Assembly (NCBI GenBank): GCA_020832495.1
Contig: JAFIEP010000087.1
Location: forward strand, 1 to 44,780
Direction of reading: 5' to 3'
Length of the DNA: 44,780 nt
Source: Acidimicrobiia bacterium
GTDB lineage: Bacteria > Actinomycetota > Acidimicrobiia > Acidimicrobiales > Acidimicrobilacustridaceae
In this document: piece after piece, positions 25,684-38,462 of the stretch
Layout of the letters: every line of letters begins with the position of its first letter
Numbering within the stretch: position 1 is the stretch's first letter
Program-made: the position numbers and the translations under genes
The notes under the pieces: model-generated
Database searches by the model: none
What the model saw: only the letters and a program-made list of their open reading frames with translations
Told to the model about the DNA's origin: nothing

Positions 25684-25748
25684 CTCGGCACCCTACTGCG
25701 CCGACCATTCGGTGCCGGCTGCCACACGGCTCGCCGGCCGCGTGCTCG

Positions 25749-26984
25749 CTACTCGATGCGGATACCGGAGATGGCCCGGGCGATCACGAGTTCCTGGATC
25801 TGCTCGGTGCCCTCGAAGATGTCGAAGATCTTCGAGTCGCGATGCCACCGCTCGACGGGGTACTCGCGGGTGTAGCCGTAGCCACCCAGGATCTGGATGG
25901 CCCGCTCGGTCACCCACACCGCAGTGCGGCCGGCGTAGAGCTTCGACATGGAACCCTCGGCGTTGCGGTACTCGCCGTTGCGGGCCAGCCACGCGGCACG
26001 CCATACCAACAGGCGGGCAGCGTCGATCTCCATGCACATGTTGGCCAGCATGAAGGCGATCGACTGGTTCTCGATGATGGCCTTGCCGAAGGCCTTGCGC
26101 TCCTTCGCGTACTCGAGCGAGTACTCGTACGCCGCCCGGGCGATGCCCACCGCCTGGGCGCCCACGGCGGGGCGGGTGGCCTCGAAGGTGGCCATGGCCG
26201 GCTGCTTGCCCGACGGCGTGGCCGCCTGCGGGTTGTTGAGCCGCTCACGGGCCCGGGCCAGCTTCTCGTCGAGCTTCTCCTTGCCACCGAGCAGGCAGGA
26301 ACCCGGCACACGGCAGTCATCGAGCACCACCTCGGAGGTGTGCGACGCCTTGATGCCGTGCTTCTTGTACTTCTGGCCCATGGAGAGACCGGGGTTGTTG
26401 GGCGGCACGATGAAGCTGGCCTGCCCACGGCCCTTCAGTTCGGGATCGACCGACGCCACCACCACGTGCACATCGGCGATGCCGCCGTTGGTGATCCACG
26501 CCTTGGTGCCGTTGAGCACCCATTCGTCCTTGGCCTCGTCGTACACGGCTCTCGTGCGGAGGTTCGACACGTCGGAGCCGGCGTCGGGCTCGGACACGCA
26601 GAACGCACCCAGCTTCACGTCGTCGGCCGTGCCGTAGCACTGCGGCACCCACTCCATGGTCTGCTCGGGAGTGCCGTTGCCGGCGATGCCCGCAGCAGCC
26701 AGGCCAGAGCCCATGATGGACAGCCCGATGCCGGCGTCGCCCCAGAAGAGTTCCTCGAGCGCCACCGGCAGGGTGAGGCCGGTGTCGTCACCCATCATGG
26801 CCTGGGCCATGAAGTCGAAGCCGTAGAGACCGATCTTGGCGGCTTCCTCGACGATGGGCCACGGGAACTCCTCCCGCTCGTCCCATTCCTCGGCTGCCGG
26901 TCGTACGACGTCAGCGGCGAAGTCGTGCACCCAGGTGCGGATCTGCTCCTGATCGTCGTTCAGCTTCAGCGAAAACTCGGCCAT
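25749..26984 (-). CDS. Acyl-CoA dehydrogenase (copy 1)
   Basis: A 411-residue FAD enzyme catalysing alpha,beta-dehydrogenation of an acyl-CoA, passing electrons to ETF. Landmarks are the helical N-terminal domain; CVSEPDAGSDVSNLRTRA and WVLNGTKAWITNGGIADV of the beta domain; VAAMAV-equivalent GAQAVGIARAAYEYSLEYA; the flavin segment QILGGYGYTREYPVERWHRD; and FEGTEQIQ, whose Glu occupies the catalytic-base position of MCAD-type enzymes. The insertion GKEKLDEKLARARERLNNP makes it slightly longer than common family members. GAGGAG precedes the ATG by 9 nt. It is about 90% identical, without gaps, to the copy at 37157-38392 and carries the same upstream palindrome. Chain or branch specificity is unknown. 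Confidence 0.94.
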   Translation of the reverse strand: MAEFSLKLNDDQEQIRTWVHDFAADVVRPAAEEWDEREEFPWPIVEEAAKIGLYGFDFMAQAMMGDDTGLTLPVALEELFWGDAGIGLSIMGSGLAAAGIAGNGTPEQTMEWVPQCYGTADDVKLGAFCVSEPDAGSDVSNLRTRAVYDEAKDEWVLNGTKAWITNGGIADVHVVVASVDPELKGRGQASFIVPPNNPGLSMGQKYKKHGIKASHTSEVVLDDCRVPGSCLLGGKEKLDEKLARARERLNNPQAATPSGKQPAMATFEATRPAVGAQAVGIARAAYEYSLEYAKERKAFGKAIIENQSIAFMLANMCMEIDAARLLVWRAAWLARNGEYRNAEGSMSKLYAGRTAVWVTERAIQILGGYGYTREYPVERWHRDSKIFDIFEGTEQIQELVIARAISGIRIE

Positions 26985-27064
26985 GGGGTCGTGCTCCTCG
27001 TCGGTCCGCCGGTGGCCCTGCGGGCGTCCCCATGGCTGGCGACGGCTCATCGAGGACCGGCAAA

Positions 27065-27153: not shown

Positions 27154-27196
27154 CTGCGCGCAACCAACCACCGCAACGGTGGCCCACTGCGCGCAG
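27154..27196. repeat. 43-nt palindromic intergenic element, copy 1
   Basis: Outer arms CTGCGCGC (1-8) and GCGCGCAG (36-43) pair perfectly; the inner stem CCACCG/CGGTGG closes on CAA. It lies between the dehydrogenase promoter and the 3' end of the CSLREA gene, 22 bp beyond that stop. It is one of five related elements, all 43 nt long. Confidence 0.75.
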
Positions 27197-27217
27197 TCGC
27201 TGCGCGCGAGTCCGCCT

Positions 27218-30200
27218 CTACGGCGCAGGGTCCGTCGATGCGCCCTCGACCGAGCCGACACTGCACCCCGCCGCGCCGGGACGGGTGACACCGCGTTGGT
27301 CGGTGGGAATCGCGCCGTCGCACAGCCCAGCGGTGCCGAGCGGGATCGCCTCGAGCAGCGGACTGTCGGCCCACGGCAGGTGCGTCAGCGTAGGGCCACC
27401 GTTGTCAGCAAGCGGACCGAGCAACGCGGCGACGCTCTGCACGTCCCCTGTGGCGGCCACCGAGCACGAGTCGTCGCTCACGACGTTGTAGCCACCGGAG
27501 GTTGCAGCGTGTGAGCAGACGGCGCCGGGAGTCGACAACACGGTGCCGGCCGTCGTCAGCCGTGCGGCGTTGACGAGCAGCGATGCGTCTGCTCCGACGA
27601 CCGTCGTCAGCGTCAGGGTCACCGTTCCCGTGGCACCCCAGTGCCGGATGGCGGAGCCGCTGGGCCCCGTGTTGGCGCTGAGCGTGCTGTTCACCAACGT
27701 GACGTCGTTCAAGCGGCTGTAGATCGCCCCGCCACCGTGATGTGAAGATCCCCCGGCGCTCGAGGCGCTGTTGGCGGCCAGCGTCGACCCGGAGACCTGG
27801 ACCGGAGCGTTGTTGGCATAGACCGCGCCGCCCTGGTGACCCGCCGAGTTGCCGGAGAGGGTGGAGCCACCGATCACGGTGGTCCCGCCATTGACGTACA
27901 ACCCACCGCCCCAGAGGTCAGCGGAGTTGTCCTCGATGACGGAGTCCTCGACGACCAGCGTGCCGGACCCGGTCTTGGAGATCGCACCGCCGAGCATGTC
28001 CGAGTGGTTGCCCGACACGATGCTGTCGACCACCGTCGCTGACGGACCCGAGACGTAGACGCCGCCCCCGTTGCCGGCGGACTCAGAGCCACCCGGCCAG
28101 TCCCACGCCACGTTGTCGACGACCGACGAGCGCTCCATCAGGAGCACGCCGCTGCTGTAGACCCCCGCACCGAACGCGTAGACGTACAGGTCCCACTCCT
28201 GGTCCACGTCGCCTCGCAACTCGTTGTCACGAACGATGACGTCGACGAGGTGCAACGACGCCACCGACTTGACGCCACCGCCGAGGGGGTCGGACCACTG
28301 GCGGTACCCGCCTGTGACGGTGAGGTTCTCGAGCACGAGCGCGCCGCTGTGGTGGTCGATGACGCGGTCCTGCTGCGTCTGGGTGATGGTGGCTCCGTTG
28401 CCGACGATCGTCGTAGTGGCGTGCACGTCGAGATCACCGCCTGCGTTGTTGTTCTCGGCGGCGCCACCGATGGTCAGCGTCGGGTCAACACCGGGGTTGA
28501 TCGTGATCGCGCTGCCGGGATGCAGGTTCGCTTCGTCGATGGCGGCACGGAGCGTGCACACCCCGGTGCCGTCGTCGCACACGCCGTCGCCCGGGTTGGC
28601 ATCAGGAGCGTCGTGGGCGGCGTCGACCACCAAATCGAGCGGCACCGGGTCCGGCCCGCTCCCCGCGCCCTCCACCGAGCCGATGGTGCAGCCGGTGGCC
28701 CCGGGGCGGGCGACGCCACGCTGGTCGGTGGGAAGGGTGTCGTCGCACAGCTCGCTCGTGCCCACAGGGATCGCTTCGACGGCCGGGTTCGACGCAGCCG
28801 GCAGATGGGTCAGTGTGGGACCGCCGTTGTCGGCCAGCGCGTCGACGAAGAAGGCCGCGCCTTCGACATCGCCGGTGCTCCCCAAACCGCACGAGACATC
28901 GCTGACCACGTTGTACCCGCCCGACGTGGCAGCCACCTGACACACGGGCAGGGCCGCAGCCTGCACCAGTGATGCGGCCATGGTGATGCCGTACCCGGCC
29001 AGGCTCGGCGCACCGACATTGCCGACAACCGTGGTGGCGACCAGCGACACCGGGCCCTCTGCCTCGACGGCGCTGCCCCGGGTCACGGTTCCACCCGTGG
29101 ACAGCAACACGTTGGCGCTGAAGGTGGAGTTGGTGACGGTGGCCGAACTCGTGGAGGAGACGAACAAACCGCCGCCCCGCCGAGCATGGTTGTCGACCAC
29201 CGAGCTGTTCTCGATGGTGAGCTGCGACCCACCGACGTAGACACCGCCGCCCCGGGTCGAGAAGTTCACGTCGCCGCCGTCAGCTGCTCGGTTGCCCGTG
29301 ACGGTGCTGTCGATCAGGTGCACGGTGGCGTCGAATGCCGAGAGCCCGCCGCCGCCCCCTCCGACGGCCACGTTGTCGCTGACCGTGCTTCGCTCGATGC
29401 TGGCTGCCGCGTGCTCGACGTGCAGCCCGCCACCGAACCCGCCGGCGTTGTAGGGGTCGACCGCGATCTCGGCAAACCCGTCGTTGTGGTTGCCGCTCAC
29501 CGTGCTGTCGCGCACCACCAGGTCCGCTCGGGCGCGGATGCCGGCCCCTTCGGGTCCGTAGTTGCTCTCACCGATGAGCGCACCGGTGGATCCGCCAGTG
29601 ACGGTGAGTTCCTCGACGACCAGCACACCCTCGTGGTGATCGATGACCCGGTCGGCCCTGGTCTGGGTGAGGGTGGCGCCGCCGCCGAGGATGGTGAGCG
29701 AGCCGTGGACGTCGAGGTCGCCGAAGGCGTTGGTGTTGTCCTCTTCGAACCACAGGTCCGCGCTCGGTATGGGGCGGGTCAGGGTCGGGTTGATACCGGG
29801 GCCGATCTCGATGGTGTCGGCGGTGGGCACTGCGTTGGCTTCGTCGATCGCCGCACGCAGCGTGCAGGCGCCGGTGCCGTCGTCGCACACGCCGTCGCCG
29901 GGATTGGCATCGGGAGCGTCGTGCGCGGCATCGACCACGAACAGCCGGCTCATCGCCGCCCCGTCGGTCTCGACCGCCCCGGCGGTGCAGCCGTTCCCCT
30001 GTGGGCGGGCCTCGCCCCGCTGGTCGACAGCCACGGTGCCGTCACACAGTCCGGGGAGACCGTCGGGCACACGGTCGTTTGCCGGCGAGAACTGGGTGGG
30101 TAGGTGGGTGAGTGTGGGCCCGCCGTTGCCGGCCAGCGGCTCGAGGCCCGTCTGCGCGGCGCTCTGCAGGTCGCCGGTCGCGTCGAGGGCGCACGAGGTG

Positions 30201-31984
30201 TCGGTGACCACGTTCGACGTCCCCGAGGCCACCGCGGTGTTGCACGCACTCAGCGCGCCGGTGCCGTCGATGATGCTGGCCGACACCACCACCGCATCGG
30301 CGTCGCTGCCCGAACGGAACAGGACGTTCGCTCCGCCGTGGTCCTCGATGGTGACGTAGGTGAGCGACACGGCGCCGTCGGCGTGGTGAACCGCCGACCC
30401 GAACCAGCCGAGGTTGCCGCTGAAGGTCGAGTTGGTCACCGCCAGGTCAGCGCCGGCCACGGCGATGGCCCCACCGGCGCCGGTGAACGAGGTGGCACGG
30501 TTGTTCACGAACGTGGAGTCGGTCACCACCGTCGACTCGTTCGCCAGGTACAGCGCACCGCCGCGGCTGTTGGCTGTCTGTGCCCGGTTGTCCACCATCG
30601 TCACCCGGTGCAGCTCGAGGCTCCCGCCCGAGCTGGCAATGCCCCCACCGTGGACGGGGCTGGTGGTGCGGCCACCCCGCACCGTGAGGTCCTCGATGCG
30701 CAGATCCCCACTGTGGTGTTGGATCGCCCGATCCAACCCGGCGGCGTCGAGGGTCGCACTGCCGCCCTCGATGCGGAGGTCGCCGTGGATGTCGAGATCG
30801 CCGGTGGCGTTGCCGTCCTCACCCGCTCCGGGCAACGACAACGTCGGATCAACCCCGTCGGCGATGGTCACAACCGTCTCGTCAGGCCACGCGTTCGCTT
30901 CGTCGATCGCCGCACGCAGCGTGCACGCACCGGCACCGTCGTCGCACACCCCGTCGCCAGGGTTCAGGCTCCTCGCATCGTGTGCGGCGTCGACGGTGAG
31001 CGAAAGCGTTCCGACACCGACCTCGACCGCGCCACGATCGCAGCCCGACCCCTGAGGCCGCTCCAACCACCGCTGATCAGTGCGAGCATGTGGCAACGAC
31101 TCACACGGCTCGGTGCCCGCGGGGACGGCGCCGAGCAGCGGAGAACCAGCCTGAGGCGCATGCAACGGCACCAGTGCCGCCGACAGCGGCGCCAACCCAG
31201 CGTTCGCCGACGACACGTCACCGGTGTCGGCGAACCCGCAGGTGCCGTCACTGTCGAGGTTGTAGCCGCCCGACGCGACTGCTGCAGCGCAGTCATCGTC
31301 GCCGTTGTCGGCCACCACCGAGGCTCGCAGCGACATCGCACCGTCGCCGATCAGGCCGCCAGACGCGTTGTCGGTAACGGTGAGGTACGTGCCCTCGACA
31401 ACAGCCGCCGGGCCGGCACTCATGCCTGCGCCGCCGTTCCCCGACGACGTGGTGTCGGTGGCGGCGAAGCGACCGCCGGCGCTCACCAGCACCCCAGGCC
31501 CGTCGTTGTCGACCAACGCGCCCTTGCCGAACACCACCGTCGCACCATCACCGACGACAACACCAGCCTCGGAAGCGCCCGACACCGCCAGCCCCCGCAC
31601 CACCACGTCCCCGCCGCGGACGTCGAGCCCGTTCGTGGCCTCCGAGGCATCGATGCGCACACCGGGCGCCTGACCCTCAACCGCCACCGGACCCGCCACC
31701 GGGTCCACCACCAACGCACCCGAACCCAGCGTGTACGTGCCCGACGGCACCACCACCGTGGCCTTCCCCTCCAGGTGAGCGTTGGCCTCCTCGATCGCGG
31801 CGCGCAGCGAACAATCCCCCGCACCCGCCGTCATCTCACACACGCCGTCTCCCGCAGTGACCGCACCCCCATCAGCGAACGTCGTCACCTCGAGCACCAA
31901 CTGAGGCGGCGGATCCTCACACGCCGCCAACACCACCGCCGCACCGAACACCACCACTGCCAGCTTTCGCACCTGGGACCCCAT
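27218..31984 (-). CDS. CSLREA/beta-helix lipoprotein with choice-of-anchor repeats
   Basis: A surface lipoprotein of 1588 residues. The signal ends in the lipobox LAAC (Cys22) in VVVFGAAVVLAACEDPPP. Four modules follow. Each begins with a CSLREA domain (GDGVC ... C-T/S-LRAAIDEAN) at about residues 30, 325, 680 and 1115, continues into parallel beta-helix coils rich in NNGGG-like, SGNSA, VVDNVA and DSTVSGN turns, and ends in a choice-of-anchor-Q-like block (DNGGPTLTHLP ... LCD ... TDQRG ... GCxxGxVE). The beta-helix is usual for adhesins or polysaccharide-binding and lyase-like proteins; no catalytic residues can be assigned. The ATG at 31984 gives the lipoprotein signal; the longer ORF to 32176 does not. 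It is divergent from the ECF sigma gene. Modules 2-4 are strikingly similar at DNA level. Confidence 0.9.
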   Translation of the reverse strand: MGSQVRKLAVVVFGAAVVLAACEDPPPQLVLEVTTFADGGAVTAGDGVCEMTAGAGDCSLRAAIEEANAHLEGKATVVVPSGTYTLGSGALVVDPVAGPVAVEGQAPGVRIDASEATNGLDVRGGDVVVRGLAVSGASEAGVVVGDGATVVFGKGALVDNDGPGVLVSAGGRFAATDTTSSGNGGAGMSAGPAAVVEGTYLTVTDNASGGLIGDGAMSLRASVVADNGDDDCAAAVASGGYNLDSDGTCGFADTGDVSSANAGLAPLSAALVPLHAPQAGSPLLGAVPAGTEPCESLPHARTDQRWLERPQGSGCDRGAVEVGVGTLSLTVDAAHDARSLNPGDGVCDDGAGACTLRAAIDEANAWPDETVVTIADGVDPTLSLPGAGEDGNATGDLDIHGDLRIEGGSATLDAAGLDRAIQHHSGDLRIEDLTVRGGRTTSPVHGGGIASSGGSLELHRVTMVDNRAQTANSRGGALYLANESTVVTDSTFVNNRATSFTGAGGAIAVAGADLAVTNSTFSGNLGWFGSAVHHADGAVSLTYVTIEDHGGANVLFRSGSDADAVVVSASIIDGTGALSACNTAVASGTSNVVTDTSCALDATGDLQSAAQTGLEPLAGNGGPTLTHLPTQFSPANDRVPDGLPGLCDGTVAVDQRGEARPQGNGCTAGAVETDGAAMSRLFVVDAAHDAPDANPGDGVCDDGTGACTLRAAIDEANAVPTADTIEIGPGINPTLTRPIPSADLWFEEDNTNAFGDLDVHGSLTILGGGATLTQTRADRVIDHHEGVLVVEELTVTGGSTGALIGESNYGPEGAGIRARADLVVRDSTVSGNHNDGFAEIAVDPYNAGGFGGGLHVEHAAASIERSTVSDNVAVGGGGGGLSAFDATVHLIDSTVTGNRAADGGDVNFSTRGGGVYVGGSQLTIENSSVVDNHARRGGGLFVSSTSSATVTNSTFSANVLLSTGGTVTRGSAVEAEGPVSLVATTVVGNVGAPSLAGYGITMAASLVQAAALPVCQVAATSGGYNVVSDVSCGLGSTGDVEGAAFFVDALADNGGPTLTHLPAASNPAVEAIPVGTSELCDDTLPTDQRGVARPGATGCTIGSVEGAGSGPDPVPLDLVVDAAHDAPDANPGDGVCDDGTGVCTLRAAIDEANLHPGSAITINPGVDPTLTIGGAAENNNAGGDLDVHATTTIVGNGATITQTQQDRVIDHHSGALVLENLTVTGGYRQWSDPLGGGVKSVASLHLVDVIVRDNELRGDVDQEWDLYVYAFGAGVYSSGVLLMERSSVVDNVAWDWPGGSESAGNGGGVYVSGPSATVVDSIVSGNHSDMLGGAISKTGSGTLVVEDSVIEDNSADLWGGGLYVNGGTTVIGGSTLSGNSAGHQGGAVYANNAPVQVSGSTLAANSASSAGGSSHHGGGAIYSRLNDVTLVNSTLSANTGPSGSAIRHWGATGTVTLTLTTVVGADASLLVNAARLTTAGTVLSTPGAVCSHAATSGGYNVVSDDSCSVAATGDVQSVAALLGPLADNGGPTLTHLPWADSPLLEAIPLGTAGLCDGAIPTDQRGVTRPGAAGCSVGSVEGASTDPAP

Positions 31985-32031
31985 GTGCTGAACGTACTCT
32001 GAACCGACACCAAGATGCCTCCGAAGGTCAC

Positions 32032-32051
32032 GACCAGTGGTCAACTGACCA
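32032..32051. promoter_or_regulatory. Overlapping palindromes in the divergent promoter region
   Basis: GACCAGTGGTC (32032-32042) overlaps TGGTCAACTGACCA (32038-32051; TGGTCA-AC-TGACCA), giving three alternating half-sites. It lies in the gap between the CSLREA gene and the ECF sigma gene, 48-67 bp before the CSLREA start, where a regulator of either gene could bind. Part of it also resembles the flank of repeat copy 4 (CAACTGAC), so it may instead belong to the repeat. Confidence 0.45.
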
Positions 32052-32066
32052 GCCCACCCGCCGGGC

Positions 32067-32109
32067 CCGCGCGCATCCAACCACCGCATCGGTGGCCCAG
32101 GGCGCGCCG
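32067..32109. repeat. 43-nt palindromic intergenic element, copy 2
   Basis: Same length and layout as copy 1: arms CCGCGCGC and GCGCGCCG, inner stem CCACCG/CGGTGG closing on CAT. It sits between two divergently transcribed genes, so it cannot be a terminator for either. Confidence 0.7.
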
Positions 32110-32196
32110 TTGATCCGCAGGCTCGCCCAGATGCGCCACAACCGAACCGTCGACGCCCGGTGACACATCGGGCCACGTGCGACCCTTTCTTGGGTG

Positions 32197-32688
32197 ATGG
32201 CCCCCATCGGGAACGACGACACCGACGCGGCCGATCGGTTCGACCGGTTCGCCCGCCACGTCGACCGGCGCCTGTGGCTGGCCCTCGTCCCGCAGGTGGG
32301 CGCCGAGCGCGCCGGCGAAGCGGTGAACGAAGCGCTGCTCTATGCCTGGCGGCACTGGCCGAAGGTGGAGTCGCTCGACAATCCCGGCGGCTACCTGTAC
32401 CGACTGGCGCTGCGCGCCGCCACCCGCCCGGGGCGTGCCGAACGGGCCATCGACATCCTCCCCCGCCCCGAGCCCGCCGACCTCCCCGAGGTGGAGCCCG
32501 AACTCGTGCCCGCCCTGCTGGCGCTGTCGGAATCGCAACGCACCGTGGTGTGGCTGGTCGAAGGGTGCGGCTGGGGCCTCACCGACACCGCCCGACTGCT
32601 CGAGGTGTCCGTCTCGACGGCGCGCAACCACCTGGCCCGGGGGATGAAGCACCTGCGCGCCCACCTGGAGGTGACCCTCGATGCCTGA
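32197..32688 (+). CDS. ECF-type RNA polymerase sigma factor
   Basis: About 163 residues with the two sigma regions of an extracytoplasmic-function factor. Region 2 spans DRFARHVDRRLWLALVPQ ... NEALLYAWRHWPKVE ... PGGYLYRLALRAA. Region 4 is a helix-turn-helix ALLALSESQRTVVWLVEGCG ... TDTARLLEVSVSTARNHLARG. The linker PRPEPADLPEVEPEL is Pro-rich. GTG at 32194 and ATG at 32197 are both possible starts; no clear ribosome site is present. It overlaps the next gene by 8 nt (ATGCCTGA), the usual arrangement of an ECF factor with its regulator. It is divergent from the CSLREA lipoprotein gene, a candidate target. Confidence 0.87.
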   Translation: MAPIGNDDTDAADRFDRFARHVDRRLWLALVPQVGAERAGEAVNEALLYAWRHWPKVESLDNPGGYLYRLALRAATRPGRAERAIDILPRPEPADLPEVEPELVPALLALSESQRTVVWLVEGCGWGLTDTARLLEVSVSTARNHLARGMKHLRAHLEVTLDA

Positions 32689-33955
32689 CCACGACCTCGA
32701 AACCTACGCCCGATGGGTGGGGCAACAGCACGTCCCTGTGGACCCGGCCGACATCCGGGCGCAGGCATCCACGACCGATGACGTCGCCCTGTCGGATCTC
32801 GACAGCGTGACCGTCGAGCCTGCAGGCCACCGGCAGCGGTGGCTCCTGGCGGCCGCGGCGGTGGTCGTGGTCGCCCTGGCCGCTGCCGGGATCGGGGTGG
32901 CCACCGGCGGCAGTGACAGCGAGGTCCACGTCGGCGGCCCGACCACACCCGACCCAGTTCTTCCGAATGAGGCCTCGCCACCGTCCACCACGGAGGCCTC
33001 CACCACACCCACCACGCTGTTCGAGGGCACCTCCGTCGTCGACCTACTCGCCGACCCGGACTGTGCCGTGCCACTCCCACCGATCGCCCAGGTCGAGAAC
33101 TCCCCCGGCCAACAGGAACAGCTCCGCGAGGTGACCGGCAACGAGCGCCTCGTCACAAGTACGCAGCATCTCGGGGAGATCGGTCCCGAATTGGATTCCG
33201 ACGGCGACGGTGAACCCGACCATGTCGTGCGACGCAGTCGTCTCTCGGATCCGGCCGTTATCGAGCGCGGGGACGGTTCGTTGACCTTCGTGGCCGACGA
33301 TGCCGACGTGGGGGTGTCGACGTTCAGTGTCGGCAACGAACACATCGGTCTCGGGGACCTGAACGGCGACGGTCGGCACGAGTTCGTCGTGTCGGCGGTG
33401 CCGGAGGTCGGGCCGCCGGCCATGTACGTGGTACCCGGGTCGACGCCGCCGGGGACCCACCAGGTAGCCGACGTCGGCATCCGCATCGCCGGCCACGCCA
33501 TCGCCATCGGCGACCGCAACGGCGACGGTGTCCCGGATCTCGCCGTTCTGGCGGTGGACGGCCTGCTCACGGAGGACTCGACGACCCAGATCATCTCGGG
33601 CGCCGACGTGATGGCGGTCGATGTCGGGGGCGACGCCCGCGCGGTCGAACCGCTCGTCGAGGCGCCCGGGCAGCTGGTGGGCGTCGTGGACCTCGGCGCG
33701 AGCGCACCGGCGATGATCACTGTCGACGTCGAGGTGAGCGACGACCGCAGCGAGCGGCGGCAGGTCCTCCATATCGTCGACGAGGGAGGAACAGCTCGCC
33801 TGGTCAGCGGACCGACACCGACCGTCACCTCGGTGGCCGGCCCGCCACCACGAGTGATCGATGCCGACGACGGCACCTACGTCGAGTTCGAGGTGTCCAC
33901 CCGCGGGGGAAGCAGCGCCTACCTCTGGCGCCTGAACGAACCCTGCCCGCAGTAG
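32681..33955 (+). CDS. Putative anti-sigma membrane protein with FG-GAP/calcium-loop repeats
   Basis: 424 residues. A cytosolic N-terminus of about 50 residues (MPDHDLETYARWVGQQHVPV) is followed by one transmembrane helix (WLLAAAAVVVVALAAAGIGV), a Thr/Pro-rich linker (TTEASTTPTT) and a large extracytoplasmic domain. That domain has at least three loops of the calcium-binding FG-GAP/dockerin type: DSDGDGEPDH, DLNGDGRHEF and DRNGDGVPDL, each between beta strands, suggesting an integrin-like propeller. Its position overlapping the ECF sigma start makes an anti-sigma role likely, although no zinc HxxxCxxC motif is visible in the N-terminus. It would act as a membrane sensor. Function is inferred from context. 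It ends at a strong hairpin shared with the convergent symporter gene. Confidence 0.8.
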   Translation: MPDHDLETYARWVGQQHVPVDPADIRAQASTTDDVALSDLDSVTVEPAGHRQRWLLAAAAVVVVALAAAGIGVATGGSDSEVHVGGPTTPDPVLPNEASPPSTTEASTTPTTLFEGTSVVDLLADPDCAVPLPPIAQVENSPGQQEQLREVTGNERLVTSTQHLGEIGPELDSDGDGEPDHVVRRSRLSDPAVIERGDGSLTFVADDADVGVSTFSVGNEHIGLGDLNGDGRHEFVVSAVPEVGPPAMYVVPGSTPPGTHQVADVGIRIAGHAIAIGDRNGDGVPDLAVLAVDGLLTEDSTTQIISGADVMAVDVGGDARAVEPLVEAPGQLVGVVDLGASAPAMITVDVEVSDDRSERRQVLHIVDEGGTARLVSGPTPTVTSVAGPPPRVIDADDGTYVEFEVSTRGGSSAYLWRLNEPCPQ

Positions 33956-33969
33956 CAAGTCAACGATCG

Positions 33970-34009
33970 GGCCAGCGGGCCGCGCCCTCCCCTGGGGGCG
34001 CGGCTGGCC
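33970..34009. terminator. Bidirectional hairpin between convergent genes
   Basis: The outer stem GGCCAG (33970-33975) pairs with CTGGCC (34004-34009), and the inner stem CCGCGCCC (33980-33987) with GGGCGCGG (33996-34003). It occupies most of the 64-bp gap between the FG-GAP protein gene and the symporter gene. No T tract follows on either strand, but position and stem strength favour termination. Confidence 0.6.
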
Positions 34010-34019
34010 GCAGCCCTCG

Positions 34020-35360
34020 TCACCACACGATGGTGACGGCGATCCACACCAACACCGCCACCGGGAGCCAGCGGCCGACCAGGTAGATCCGGGCGATCCA
34101 CCACCTCGAGTCGGTGCCCAACGCCTGCTGCAACCGGCTGGGCGGCACCAGCCAGCAGAAGAAACCGGCGCCGAAGATGCCGGAGAACAGGATCACCTGC
34201 CCACCCACGTTCTGGTCCACCCAGTCGAGGAACCGCGTGTCGCCGATGCTCAGCTCGAGGGGCGTGAAGCTGAGCGCGGAGGGCAGCGCCAGGACCAGCA
34301 TGACCCCGACGACCACCACGACAGCCTTCACGTGGCGCAGGCGGAACTCCTCGGCCACCGCGCTCAGGATCACCTTCAACCCGGCCAGGCTGGAGCTGAA
34401 CGCTGCGATGCAGAACAAGGCGAAGAACGCAATGGCCAGCGGAGCGCCCCAGGCCATGGCCTCGAACGCTCGGGGCAGCGTGTTGAAGGCCAACTGGCTG
34501 CCCTCGCCCGGATCCAGGCCGTGGGTGAACACGAACGGGAAGATCATCCAGCCGGCGAGCAGGGCGATGCAGGTCTCGGTTCCCGCAATGGCCAGCGAGG
34601 CGCGCGGCACGTTGGTCTTGGTCGGGATGTAGCTGCCGTAGGTGACGAGGTAGCCCTGGCCGATGGCCAACGAGTAGAAGCCCTGGCCGAAGGCAATCAC
34701 CCACAGCGTCGGGTCCCTCAGCGCGGAGAGGTCGGTCGACAGGAGGAAGTCCTTCGCCTGTTCCCACCCGGCGGTACGACTGGCGGCGACGACCAGTCCG
34801 ATGACGACGACCAAGAGCACCGGCATCATCGCCTTCGAGAACGTCTCGAGTGCGCTGAGACCGCGAACGAGCAGGATGCCGCCCAGGCCGAGGACCACCA
34901 CGAGCCACAGCAGCGAGGCGTAGCCAGCAGAGAAGTCGGCGAACGGACGCACCTGCTGGCGGACTGCATCCACCGCGTAGCCCATCGTCCAGCCGGTGAT
35001 CACCAGGTAGTAGCTGGTGATCACCGTGGTCAGCCCGACGACGAACCAGCCGTACCAGACACCGGCGGGGTGCACCTGGCGGAACGTGTGGACGGTGTTG
35101 CCCTGGGCCAGCCGCCCGGCAGCCACCTCGAGGTACATGAGCGGCAGGCACACGACGACCATGGCCAGTAGGTAGGCCAGGATGAACCCGCCGCCTCCGT
35201 ACTCCCCGGCGAGGTAGGGGAACCGCCACAGGTTCCCGAGGCCCACCGCTGCGGCGGCCATCGAGAAGATGAACGCCGGCTCCGACGACCACTGCCCGCG
35301 ATCCTTGGACGTCTCCGTCCCCGGGCCCGCAGCGTCGGCTTGTGGCACCGGTTCCGCCAC
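34020..35360 (-). CDS. Sodium-dependent NSS-family transporter
   Basis: An integral membrane protein of 446 residues in the neurotransmitter:sodium symporter family (LeuT/MhsT type), which imports amino acids or related amines with Na+. Helix 1 carries the family signature AVGLGNLWRFPYLAGEYGGG, helix 6 has QGFYSLAIGQGYLVTYGSY with the unwound segment, and helix 8 has FALFCIAAFSSSLAGLK with sodium-ligand Ser residues. About 11-12 helices are predicted by hydrophobicity, and the length matches bacterial members. The short soluble N-terminus is acidic. The ATG at 35360 is used; no other start is needed. It is divergent from the LiaF-like cassette across a gap holding repeat copy 5. The substrate is not deducible. 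Confidence 0.93.
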   Translation of the reverse strand: MAEPVPQADAAGPGTETSKDRGQWSSEPAFIFSMAAAAVGLGNLWRFPYLAGEYGGGGFILAYLLAMVVVCLPLMYLEVAAGRLAQGNTVHTFRQVHPAGVWYGWFVVGLTTVITSYYLVITGWTMGYAVDAVRQQVRPFADFSAGYASLLWLVVVLGLGGILLVRGLSALETFSKAMMPVLLVVVIGLVVAASRTAGWEQAKDFLLSTDLSALRDPTLWVIAFGQGFYSLAIGQGYLVTYGSYIPTKTNVPRASLAIAGTETCIALLAGWMIFPFVFTHGLDPGEGSQLAFNTLPRAFEAMAWGAPLAIAFFALFCIAAFSSSLAGLKVILSAVAEEFRLRHVKAVVVVVGVMLVLALPSALSFTPLELSIGDTRFLDWVDQNVGGQVILFSGIFGAGFFCWLVPPSRLQQALGTDSRWWIARIYLVGRWLPVAVLVWIAVTIVW

Positions 35361-35402
35361 GCGGACAGACCCTCCTCGATCACGATGTCAGCAGGTGGGG
35401 AA

Positions 35403-35487
35403 TGACCGGCTCGACCCTACCGGCCAGGCGACCGAGTAGCGGCCCTACGCGCAACCCGGTCCCGCATGCGTACGCAGATGTACACAG
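35403..35487. repeat. Palindromic intergenic element, copy 5, with 42-nt shared flank
   Basis: The 43-nt palindrome is at 35445-35487 (starts CTACGCGCAACC, ends TACACAG) and is the most diverged copy. The preceding 42 nt (35403-35444) align without gaps to the flank of copy 3, with 32 of 42 identical and all ten differences transitions. It lies between divergent genes. Confidence 0.65.
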
Positions 35488-35597
35488 ATCCAGCGCCGCC
35501 GCCAACCAACACCCACCGCCGTCGAGCATCCGGGTGCACATCCGCTGCAGCGCGCTGGTCCTTCCGTCGAGACGGTCCGGCGTGCCAGGATGGGTTC

Positions 35598-36209
35598 GTG
35601 CGCGCCGTGGAGGACCAGACGCGAGCCGAGCCGGACTGGGATCGGCTCGTCACCGGGGTACTCCTCGTCGGGCTGGGTGTCGTCTGGCTCCTCTCGTCCG
35701 CTGAGGTGGTGGACCCGAACTGGCGCATCCTGCTCCCAGCGGCGTTGGTCGCCGTCGGTGCCACCATGGGACTGCTCGCAGCGTGGGGGCGCGGCAGCGA
35801 CCTCATGGGAACCGGCACGCTGCTCACGGTGCTCGTGATCGTCGTTGCGGTCATCCCGGCGAGTCCCAGCTGGCGGATCGGCGATCAGGCCGTGCGCCCC
35901 GCCACCGCAGACGAGGTGCAGGCGCGCTACTCCCACGGCGTCGGCACACTGACCATCGATCTTCGCGAGCTGGTGCTCGAGTCCGACCTCCATGTCGAGG
36001 CCAGCAACGGGATCGGTGAACTCGTCGTCCAGGTCCCCGAGGTAGCAGCTCTCGACGTCGATGTGCGCGTCGGCGTGGGCAGCGCCGTGGTCGGCGACCG
36101 CGAATCCGACGGGTTCAGCGCCCGTCTCGAGACCCGTCTCGCCGGGGAGGGGCCAACGATCCACCTGGACCTCTCGGCGGGTATCGGCGAGATCAGGGTG
36201 GAGCGATGA
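35598..36209 (+). CDS. LiaF-like membrane protein (first of three)
   Basis: About 203 residues. An acidic N-terminus is followed by three or four hydrophobic segments (LVTGVLLVGLGVVWLL, ILLPAALVAVGATMGLLAAW, GTLLTVLVIVVAVIPA). A beta-rich C-terminal domain follows with repeats of the LiaF/toast-rack kind (YSHGVGTLTIDLREL, ASNGIGELVVQVPEV, SAGIGEIRVER). Family members are membrane sensors or modulators of cell-envelope stress. GTG at 35598 follows AGGA by 8 nt; the ORF extends upstream without a family-like sequence. Its stop overlaps the next gene's start (ATGA). No LiaRS two-component pair is adjacent, so the partner is unknown. Confidence 0.8.
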   Translation: MRAVEDQTRAEPDWDRLVTGVLLVGLGVVWLLSSAEVVDPNWRILLPAALVAVGATMGLLAAWGRGSDLMGTGTLLTVLVIVVAVIPASPSWRIGDQAVRPATADEVQARYSHGVGTLTIDLRELVLESDLHVEASNGIGELVVQVPEVAALDVDVRVGVGSAVVGDRESDGFSARLETRLAGEGPTIHLDLSAGIGEIRVER

Positions 36210-36385
36210 AGGACCGTCGTGGCGTGGTCGCAGGACTCGTGTTCGTCGTGATCGGCGCCGGCTTCCTGCTCGACGAACTCGATGTCGTCGAGTTGCGACC
36301 CGCCTACCTCTTGCCGCTGCTGTTGATCGCGGCAGGTGTCTGGATCGTGGTCGGAAGCGCCCGGAGCGGGGGCCGACGCCAGTGA
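36206..36385 (+). CDS. Small two-helix LiaI/LiaF-TM-like membrane protein
   Basis: A 59-residue protein, MKDRRGVVAGLVFVVIGAGF to ARSGGRRQ, short enough to be missed by common length cut-offs. It has two transmembrane helices (VVAGLVFVVIGAGFLLDEL and AYLLPLLLIAAGVWIVVG) separated by a short loop, the same hairpin as the N-terminal part of both neighbours (DUF5668-like). Its ATG overlaps the previous stop and its TGA overlaps the next GTG start, so the three genes are translationally coupled. It probably forms a membrane complex with them. Confidence 0.82.
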   Translation: MKDRRGVVAGLVFVVIGAGFLLDELDVVELRPAYLLPLLLIAAGVWIVVGSARSGGRRQ

Positions 36386-36912
36386 GACGCCGGAGCCAGC
36401 TCCTGCTCGGCGGCCTGCTCGTCCTACTCGGCGTGCTGTGGCTGCTCGACACGGCGGACGTCATCACGGTGTGGCGGTGGGGTGTGATCGTTCCGCTCGT
36501 CGTCATCGCAGTTGGGGTGTGGCGAATCGTGACCGCATTCGGTGGCGCCAAGCGGGACGCCGTGTACGGCAGCGTCGACACCTTGGTCGTCCTGAGCGAC
36601 CGTCACCTGCGCTGCGACGGCGCCTTCGAGGGCGGGTCGATCGCCTCTGTCCTCGCCGACGTCGAACTCGACCTCAGCGGAGCGACGCCGGCCTCGCCGC
36701 CGGTCGAGCTGTCCGCCACCACGATCCTCGCCGATCTCGACATCATCGTGCCGGCCACCTGGCGCGTACGGGTGGAAGGACCGGTGCTCCTCGCCGACGT
36801 GGACGTGGATGACGAGGTGCTCGATGCCGGCGGCGCCGGACCCGATGAGCGACCCGAGCTCGTGATCAGGGCGTTCAGCGTGCTCGGCGACTTCACCGTC
36901 CGCCGCAGCTAG
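36382..36912 (+). CDS. LiaF-like membrane protein (third of three)
   Basis: 176 residues. Two transmembrane helices (LLLGGLLVLLGVLWLLDTA and WGVIVPLVVIAVGVWRIVTA) are followed by a right-handed beta domain: VYGSVDTLVVLSDRHLR, SIASVLADVELDLSGA, LSATTILADLDIIVPATW and IRAFSVLGDFTVRRS. This is the LiaF C-terminal architecture (cell-wall-active antibiotic response family). The start GTG at 36382 overlaps the previous stop as GTGA. The cassette is followed by two palindromic repeats before the convergent acyl-CoA dehydrogenase copy 2. A role in envelope stress is inferred from family and layout. Confidence 0.82.
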   Translation: MRRRSQLLLGGLLVLLGVLWLLDTADVITVWRWGVIVPLVVIAVGVWRIVTAFGGAKRDAVYGSVDTLVVLSDRHLRCDGAFEGGSIASVLADVELDLSGATPASPPVELSATTILADLDIIVPATWRVRVEGPVLLADVDVDDEVLDAGGAGPDERPELVIRAFSVLGDFTVRRS

Positions 36913-36933
36913 TCGATCACGTCGCTGCACCGG

Positions 36934-37018
36934 TGATCGGCTCGACCCCACCGGTCGGGTGACCAGGCGGCGGCTCTGCGTGCAACCGGGTACCGCAGAG
37001 GTACCTCCCAGCACACAG
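36934..37018. repeat. Palindromic intergenic element, copy 3, with 42-nt shared flank
   Basis: The palindrome is at 36976-37018: arms CTGCGTGC and GCACACAG, inner stem GTACC/GGTAC. The flank 36934-36975 is shared with copy 5. It lies in the 244-bp gap between the LiaF-like cassette and dehydrogenase copy 2; apart from copies 3 and 4 I see nothing else in that gap. Confidence 0.75.
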
Positions 37019-37066
37019 AACCTGCGACGAGGCCTGCCCAGGACCAACTGACGCACCCGTCGGGCT

Positions 37067-37109
37067 CTGCGTGCAACCAGGTACCGCATGGGTACCCATT
37101 TGCACACAG
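37067..37109. repeat. 43-nt palindromic intergenic element, copy 4
   Basis: Arms CTGCGTGC and GCACACAG, inner stem GGTACC/GGTACC around GCATG. It is a direct repeat of copy 3, offset by 91 nt. Its flank (CAACTGAC, then CACCCGTCGGGCT) matches the flank of copy 2. Confidence 0.75.
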
Positions 37110-37156
37110 AACCCGCGGCGACGCCTTCAGAGCGGGTGCCAGCAGCGCGTGTTCGA

Positions 37157-38392
37157 TTACTCGATGCGGATGCCGGAGATGGCCCGGGCGATCACCAGCT
37201 CCTGGATCTGCTCGGTGCCCTCGAAGATGTCCATGATCTTGGCGTCACGGTGCCAACGCTCGACGGGGTACTCACGGGTGTAGCCGTAGCCACCCAGGAT
37301 CTGGATGGCCCGTTCGGTCACCCACACCGCGGTTCGACCGGCGTAGAGCTTCGACATCGACCCCTCGGCGTTCTCGTACTTGCCGTTGCGCGACAGCCAC
37401 GCAGCGCGCCACAGCAGCAACCGAGCAGCGTCGACCTGCATGCACATGTTGGCCAGCATGAAGGCGATCGACTGGTTCTCGATGATGGCCTTGCCGAAGG
37501 CGCGGCGCTCCTTGGCGTACTCGAGCGAGTACTCGTAGGCGGCTCGGGCGATACCCACCGCCATGGCCGCCACGGCCGGCCGGGTGGACTCGAAGGTGGC
37601 CATGGCCGGCTGCTTGCCGGTGGAGGCCCCCGCGTCGGGGTTGTTCAGCCGTTCGCGGGCCCGAGCCAGCTTCTCGTCGAGCTTCTCCTTACCACCGAGC
37701 AGACACGAGCCGGGCACACGGCAGTCGTCGAGCACCACCTCGGAGGTGTGCGACGCCTTGATGCCGTGCTTCTTGTACTTCTGGCCCATCGACAGCCCGG
37801 GGGTGCCGGGCGGGATGACGAAGCTGGCCTGTCCACGGCTCTTCAGCTCGGGATCGACCGACGCCACCACCACGTGCACATCGGCGATGCCGCCGTTGGT
37901 GATCCACGCCTTGGTGCCGTTGAGCACCCACTCGTCCTTGGCCTCGTCGTAGACGGCCTTGGTGCGCAGGCTGGACACGTCGGAACCGGCGTCGGGCTCG
38001 GACACACAGAAAGCACCCAGCTTCACGTCGTCCGCCGTGCCGTAGCACTGCGGCGCCCACTCGGCCACCTGCTCGGGCGTGCCGTTGCCGGCGATGCCCG
38101 CCGCAGCCAGACCCGAGCCGAAGATGGACAGCCCGATGCCGGCGTCGCCCCAGAAGAGCTCCTCCATGGCGATGGGCAGCGTGAGACCGGTGGGATCCCC
38201 GATGGAGGCCTGGGCCATGAAGTCCATGCCGTACAGGCCGATCTTGGCGGCCTCCTCGACGACGGGCCACGGGAACTCCTCCCGCTCGTCCCATTCCTCG
38301 GCTGCCGGCCGCACCACGTTGGCGGCGAAGTCGTGCACCCATTGCTGGATCTGCAGCTGATCGTCGTTGAGCTGCAACGAGAACTCGGCCAT
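37157..38392 (-). CDS. Acyl-CoA dehydrogenase (copy 2)
   Basis: 411 residues, gap-free paralogue of the enzyme at 25749-26984, with about 40 differences by eye. All catalytic landmarks are kept: SEPDAGSDVSSLRTKA, GTKAWITNGGIADV, GGYGYTREYPVERWHRD and FEGTEQIQ with the base Glu. Differences cluster in the N-terminal helices, in the substrate-side segment FMAQASIGDPTG (copy 1: FMAQAMMGDDTG), and around NNPDAGASTG, so substrate range may differ. The ATG at 38392 begins MAEFSLQLNDDQ as in copy 1; the longer ORF is not conserved between copies. The upstream palindrome is also shared, so both are probably under one regulator. It converges with the LiaF-like cassette. Confidence 0.94.
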   Translation of the reverse strand: MAEFSLQLNDDQLQIQQWVHDFAANVVRPAAEEWDEREEFPWPVVEEAAKIGLYGMDFMAQASIGDPTGLTLPIAMEELFWGDAGIGLSIFGSGLAAAGIAGNGTPEQVAEWAPQCYGTADDVKLGAFCVSEPDAGSDVSSLRTKAVYDEAKDEWVLNGTKAWITNGGIADVHVVVASVDPELKSRGQASFVIPPGTPGLSMGQKYKKHGIKASHTSEVVLDDCRVPGSCLLGGKEKLDEKLARARERLNNPDAGASTGKQPAMATFESTRPAVAAMAVGIARAAYEYSLEYAKERRAFGKAIIENQSIAFMLANMCMQVDAARLLLWRAAWLSRNGKYENAEGSMSKLYAGRTAVWVTERAIQILGGYGYTREYPVERWHRDAKIMDIFEGTEQIQELVIARAISGIRIE

Positions 38393-38462
38393 GTCACTTG
38401 CCCCCTGCTCGCCTGCGTCGGCGGGTCGCTCGGTCGTGATGTCGGCACCTGCGCCACTGCAA

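Follow-up and report, generated by a model that had tools for sequence, protein, structure and literature searches.

Five short palindromes within some 10 kb of a single contig raise the question of what they are: transcribed hairpins, protein-binding sites on DNA or repeats that have spread through the genome. They lie in a stretch of 44,780 nucleotides (the window) from an Acidimicrobiia bacterium (assembly GCA_020832495.1, contig JAFIEP010000087.1). As a sequence-only reading of the window had described, all five are exactly 43 nt long, they align with one another without a gap, and all are intergenic according to the home-made codon-usage gene caller on which every gene placement reported here depends (Table 1).

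Table 1. The five window copies of the 43-nt palindrome, their gene neighbours and the stability of their predicted folds relative to shuffled sequences (z)
Copy	Position	Strand	Type and arrangement	Model pairs	Gene neighbours	z, + strand	z, - strand
Copy 1	27154..27196	-	Subfamily A, 43-nt palindrome, single	18/18	Codirectional; stop codon of a 1588-aa beta-helix gene 22 nt away	-5.8	-5.0
Copy 2	32067..32109	-	Subfamily A, single	15/18	Divergent; beta-helix protein and sigma-70 region 4 protein		
Copy 3	35445..35487	-	Subfamily B-like, degenerate; no hairpin in predicted fold	11/18	Divergent; SNF symporter and LiaF-like		
Copy 4	36976..37018	-	Subfamily B, member of a tandem direct pair at 91 nt	15/18	Convergent gene pair around copies 4 and 5	-3.9	-2.9
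Copy 5	37067..37109	-	Subfamily B, second in the tandem pair with copy 4	17/18	Convergent gene pair around copies 4 and 5	-4.6	-5.5

Taken one by one, such hairpins are unremarkable: eight Markov-simulated windows, counted on one strand, each contained between none and three 43-mers with at least 16 of the 18 model pairs. Copy 2 beats its shuffled versions weakly (z -2.5 and -2.4), and copies 1, 2, 4 and 5 fold better on the - strand because their off-pairs are mostly G.U there. At the level of the family, chance is excluded, since a covariance model built from the five copies (R1), used in the genome-wide search that the sequence-only reading had proposed, gives 74 matches at E <= 0.001 (both strands counted) and 124 at E <= 10. 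The best match in the whole genome is copy 5. A search of the window against Rfam returned no match at the gathering score.

The window has two further features of its own. Two acyl-CoA dehydrogenase genes (25739-26985 and 37146-38393), which share 88% identity at the DNA level and 90% at the protein level, flank the hairpin-rich 10 kb, and their DNA likeness ends at the gene boundaries. The predicted right-handed beta-helix protein of 1588 aa (27218-31984) has several internal DNA repeats of 75-89% identity.

In the 4.46-Mb genome (G000; other G numbers denote compared genomes, L numbers loci and C numbers contigs of G000), we listed about 78 copies at 51 sites. The list was drawn from R1 matches, with 150 first-look candidates scored, and further copies are possible. 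Two of the 78 are 39-nt local matches that were extended to 43 nt, and one weak, shortened match (C66 334-371, 38 nt, E 6.8) was left out. A further model, R2, run over the window and 20 of the 40 stretches fetched from this genome, added no copy at E <= 0.001. All 65 distinct copies among the 78 align without insertion or deletion at the fixed length of 43 nt, and each consists of a pair of half-sites of some 20 bp, inverted relative to each other and set at a fixed spacing around 3 nt. When 76 copies were split into subfamilies (two L042 copies were left out), 49 fell into A, with the consensus CTGCGCGCAGTGGgCCACCG...GGTGGtTGGtTGCGCGCaG between flanking GA and TC, and 27 into B, with the consensus CTGTGTGC..TGggGtACC...GGTAcCtGgtTGCaCgCAG. 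The flank consensus is GA...TCG for A, t...ag for B and CTG...CAG for the copies of G148, and in 78-99% of copies the bases immediately outside the two ends can pair (G.T allowed). On one strand the off-pairs are G.U in 224 cells and A.C in 26, an asymmetry of little weight, because it served to choose the strand in the first place and the copies share ancestry.

Incomplete copies also exist. A 17-nt search of G000 with the subfamily-A 5' arm, in which at most 2 mismatches were tolerated, yielded 51 hits versus 8 for the reversed pattern. Among the 37 matches with 0-1 mismatch, 35 belong to full 43-nt elements and two to half elements (C32 26618 and C13 33411), which end just past the tip. Moreover, a 3'-half copy lies 29 nt ahead of a full copy (L106, 2642), and one element (L012, 1643) is a chimera of a B-like 5' half and an A-like 3' half. 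Breaks at the tip fit processing of, or template switching on, a folded palindrome. In subfamily B (e.g. L044 2001 and L046 2083), the tip is seen in both orientations, CCGCATGG and CCATGCGG, within similar outer arms, as if flipped.

The sequence-only reading had concluded from three paired changes among the five copies that the fold is kept while the sequence drifts. Two of the changes, C-G to G-C at 15/29 and C-G to T-A at 16/28, are exactly as described; at 6/38 the copies had been confused, T-A belonging to copies 4 and 5 rather than 3 and 4, while copy 3 has C.A. The conserved symmetric layout stands. The three pair changes miss tree-corrected significance and therefore record essentially one split between A and B: in a test in which changes were re-placed at random on branches, the noted pairs reached p = 0.0125, 0.02 and 0.02 within G000, none of them significant after correction for 20 pairs, and 0 of 60 control column pairs were significant. 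By simple cell count, 63 cells of the G000 copies changed on both sides versus 32 after shuffling.

Between genomes the picture is clearer. Here 103 cells changed on both sides versus 36 after shuffling, a value reached by 0 of 500 shuffles, with the reservation that the foreign copies were found by pairing-rewarding models, which biases the comparison towards covariation. The tree test on 32 sequences from six genomes (A7) found 4 of 20 pairs significant and 0 of 60 control column pairs. Pairs 4/40 and 6/38, each represented by all four Watson-Crick types, lie at the floor of 800 simulations, and 3/41 and 16/28 pass barely (0.0025 times 20); columns G5, C18, G25, G26, T27 and C39 are invariant. 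The recurrence of the same arms in many copies per genome is independent of the model bias. The proper support for the paired changes comes from the between-genome comparison, which is stronger than the within-genome one. Symmetric change is also expected of a dimer-binding DNA site or of replication correction of imperfect palindromes, and by itself it is no proof of a hairpin.

The spacing of tandem copies offers a different kind of evidence. Copies no more than 200 nt from a neighbour were grouped, and each array contributed one start-to-start value. The 24 arrays of G000 fall at 70-72 (15 arrays), 81-85 (7) and 91-92 nt (2), the longer spacings being mostly those of subfamily B. In G148, 10 of 16 arrays measure 72-74 nt, four others 62, 84, 94 and 105 nt, and two (66 and 78 nt) are off the ladder; further spacings among the matches listed are 61, 71 and 72 nt in G049, 59 nt in G231 and 53 nt in G129. 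Among the 18 arrays away from the mode, 14 are no more than 2 nt off a 10.5-nt rung (37% expected), and the mean rung distance is 1.3 nt versus 2.7 nt expected (p = 4e-5), with one C66 pair with a shortened partner (~74-79 nt, depending on the end taken) excluded, which would oppose the ladder or sit at the edge of the mode. Leaving G000 out, nine arrays give p = 0.016, the mode for G049, G231 and G129 being borrowed from G000. Such helical phasing suggests proteins sitting on one face of duplex DNA, and protein-bound double-stranded DNA accounts for the fixed length and the phasing no less well than a hairpin does.

Going by the best-matching strand, tandem pairs are direct, with one exception in G000 (L028), the second copy of which also matches in the direct orientation; five G148 pairs hold a copy without an assignable strand. 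Some pairs have locus-specific spacers that clearly stem from tandem duplication, as at L003 with a 6-nt repeat at the junction, and in other pairs the spacers are largely unrelated to the flanks. Locus-specific pairing of flanks, apparent by eye in G148, was discarded, within-locus pairing being no higher than between-locus pairing.

In our assessment, the family is probably a dispersed REP-like palindromic DNA repeat, made of paired inverted half-sites for a putative protein. This cognate protein would bind the two half-sites as a dimer, either on double-stranded DNA or on the hairpin when the DNA is single-stranded, and either the protein or replication through the palindrome may multiply the element. 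Against the REP-like reading, some duplications, such as that at L003, could pass for simple slippage of replication between short stretches of homology, and the copies of G148 favour convergent gene pairs (23 versus 8 divergent), as transcription ends would.

How far does the repeat extend beyond G000? A search of relatives, likewise proposed in the sequence-only reading, recovered the same 43-nt layout with other arms in further genomes of the class and phylum. R1 matched 2 of 40 relatives (G031 and G036); 24 of the 40 come from the same family, none from the same genus, and those 24 gave no match at E <= 0.001. At E <= 0.001, a model derived from six genomes (R3) picked out 22 of the 395 class genomes scanned and 13 of the 396 phylum genomes (G000 counted in both; kinship as given by the search tool), as judged by rough E-values for 16 scored candidates per genome, with G031 and G036 absent from the results. 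Nearly all matches are exactly 43 nt long, and 9 of the 13 positive phylum genomes lie outside the class. At least three copies with common arms were found in 12 genomes: G000, G148, G031, G321, G130, G049, G129, G036, G319, G673, G668 and G592, the count for the last including two copies with identical flanks. For G148, 87 copies were listed (R2, E <= 0.5, 46 chosen stretches), and for G031, 13. Single or weak matches (e.g. G097, G181, G538, G547 and G699) are outside these 12 families and may be chance hairpins. In nine genomes compared, the identity of copies from one genome averages 0.67-0.92, versus 0.50 for copies from different genomes; the outer 8-9 bp are genome-specific, and the inner ACC...GGT block is largely common to genomes. 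A DNA pattern search of genome-contig and viral-contig collections, from which G000 is possibly left out, gave no match. In G129 (L264-L267), many copies lie about 1-5 kb apart on short contigs.

This distribution allows a bolder version of the REP-like reading, which we put forward only tentatively: a phylum-wide superfamily of exactly 43-nt palindromes with genome-specific arms, in which a non-Y1 enzyme would co-evolve with the arms and one-face binding would place each new copy at 70-73 nt from an existing one, or whole helical turns more or less than that.

The same geometry could instead mark a site at which a chromosome-organising or regulatory protein (a nucleoid protein, topoisomerase or dimeric regulator) binds double-stranded DNA and which persists through selection and not by selfish spread, with in-phase tandem pairs seating two dimers on one face. 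The fixed, gap-free 43-nt spacing, the symmetric half-sites and the helical ladder all suit such a site, and gyrase binds E. coli BIMEs. A polar chromosomal signal would also agree with the observation that in G000 the strand that folds coincides with the locally G-rich one in 35 of 40 regions (hairpins masked) and 29 of 33 contig units (p 1.1e-5). However, the bias is absent in G148 (27/54; 27/47 by G.T strand) and G031 (3/13; 4/8 by G.T strand), and as a general property it was dropped. Moreover, chromosomal protein-binding sites are usually conserved among relatives, whereas the arms here are genome-specific and the G000 model finds no counterpart in the 24 same-family genomes at the threshold given above. 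The genes next to the G000 copies, represented by 94 flanking proteins, are functionally mixed, which is also not in favor of a dedicated regulatory site. We consider this explanation unlikely.

If the repeat is REP-like, the obvious candidate for its partner is the Y1 transposase domain of RAYT proteins (PF01797). Pfam searches found this domain in none of six repeat-bearing genomes (completeness 84-98%), so the cognate protein would not be a Pfam-recognisable Y1 transposase in these genomes. Nor is Y1_Tnp associated with the repeat across the class, where it occurs in 2 of 22 R3-positive genomes (G245 and G393) versus 30 of all 395. The 94 proteins flanking the G000 copies match 159 Pfam families, and there is no transposase among the 25 commonest. 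Because of these three results, we call the family REP-like, with a putative partner, and leave it outside the REP/RAYT system; a Y1 transposase or RAYT as driver was rejected at all three levels, in G000, in the six repeat-bearing genomes and in the 395 class genomes. An autonomous element bounded by two copies was rejected as well: five proteins were scanned, and neither of the two encoded between copies is a transposase. The one in G321 has an AbiEi_4 domain with sub-threshold MTES_1575 and DUF559 matches, and the one in G319 is alanine-racemase-fold/D-serine-dehydratase-like.

The latter result also bears on the idea of a miniature transposon, in which the two arms would be the terminal inverted repeats of some DDE-type insertion sequence that has lost nearly all DNA in between. 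The inverted arms of 20 bp with 3 nt at the centre, intergenic copies and the existence of half copies are what one would expect of it. On the other hand, the consensus flanks (GA...TC, CTG...CAG) are complementary rather than direct target duplications, no full-length element with such ends was seen, and a search of G000 with one subfamily-A arm (at most 1 mismatch) placed 35 of 37 matches in full elements and two in halves. Such an origin is hardly probable.

Finally, we considered transcription. The 51 sites in G000 comprise 12 convergent, 10 divergent and 24 codirectional gene contexts, 4 at contig edges and 1 overlapping a predicted gene; thus 46 of the 47 sites with genes called on both sides are intergenic. 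At codirectional sites the hairpin strand is that of the genes in 13 cases and the opposite in 11, and a cassette- or integron-like arrangement was discarded, the hairpin strand being unrelated to the gene strand. In G148, 60 sites divide into 23 convergent, 24 codirectional, 8 divergent, 3 overlapping and 2 at edges, with 13 same-strand and 10 opposite-strand cases. Placement is therefore not linked to transcription in G000, whereas G148 favors convergent gene ends. The near-equality of divergent and convergent sites in G000 bears out the earlier view that terminator function alone cannot explain the copies. RNA and cruciform DNA, named in that view as the form of the fold, are candidates only, and the absent orientation to genes argues against an RNA or terminator role in G000. 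A transcribed RNA hairpin that ends transcription or stabilises mRNA, to which the stable predicted RNA folds of several copies, the excess of G.U over A.C and the convergent gene ends of G148 might point, is very unlikely given the balanced gene contexts and strands, the lack of length variation, a helical phasing that would be meaningless for RNA, and a G.U count that leans on shared ancestry and strand choice.

Returning to the REP-like repeat, we compared it with known systems. The relevant passages of PMC3116915 describe REP/REPIN sequences with RAYT as short extragenic palindromes that form doublets and tandem clusters including flanking DNA, with spacing peaks at 71 and 110 bp, arrays with 72- and 112-bp steps that point in opposite directions on either side of the genome, an associated RAYT gene, and doublets of which 93% of 430 are inverted. 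Our family resembles the REPs of those passages in being a many-copy, short extragenic palindrome with doublets, tandem clusters and a tandem spacing mostly of 70-74 nt, and it falls under the general notion of a REP (a high-copy extragenic palindrome of 20-40 bp), 43 nt being slightly above the usual size. It differs in its direct doublets, the missing Y1 transposase in six genomes and the fixed two-block palindrome. The GTAG tag, unpaired at one end, does not appear in the flank consensus of A, B or G148, and an inverted doublet as the mobile unit, typical of REPINs, was not found.

A parallel in one respect is provided by CGTC REPs, small palindromic intergenic repeats without a dedicated transposase, which the pertinent sections of PMC3733652 characterise by 8-9 bp stems, 4-5 nt loops, an unpaired tag and mostly head-to-head dimers. 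Small intergenic palindromes with no dedicated transposase found are common to both, as far as those sections go, but the arms here are about 20 nt long, the dimers are head-to-tail and the flank consensus has no tag. CGTC precedes some G148 copies without being part of the consensus, and the family does not qualify as a CGTC REP. With MITEs it shares a non-coding, dispersed nature and inverted repeats, but the flank consensus has no target-site duplication and no parent transposon was found. Among the papers listed by full-text literature searches, no title or abstract opening describes such an element, the papers themselves having been compared in parts only. According to the portion of PMC12306157 concerned, REP-like sequences are predicted in many genomes, including that of Acidimicrobium ferrooxidans, and that data set may contain repeats such as ours that have not been characterised.

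Classical REPs are ascribed to the action of Y1 transposases, and CGTC REPs are orphans; the 43-nt family would represent another orphan group. Its strict geometry, tendency to helical phase and genome-specific arms should make it possible to trace the partner protein, either through co-occurrence or with the repeat as bait in a pull-down. In addition, it gives annotators of the phylum a recognisable intergenic repeat.

Two observations concern the arrangement of copies along G000. On C50, one hairpin pair with identical 45-nt flanks is present twice (L041 and L042), inverted and 40 kb apart. By eye, copies also look clustered, with 4 sites per 10 kb on C41, 5 per 20 kb on C32 and 3 per 10 kb on C17, versus 51 sites in 4.46 Mb.
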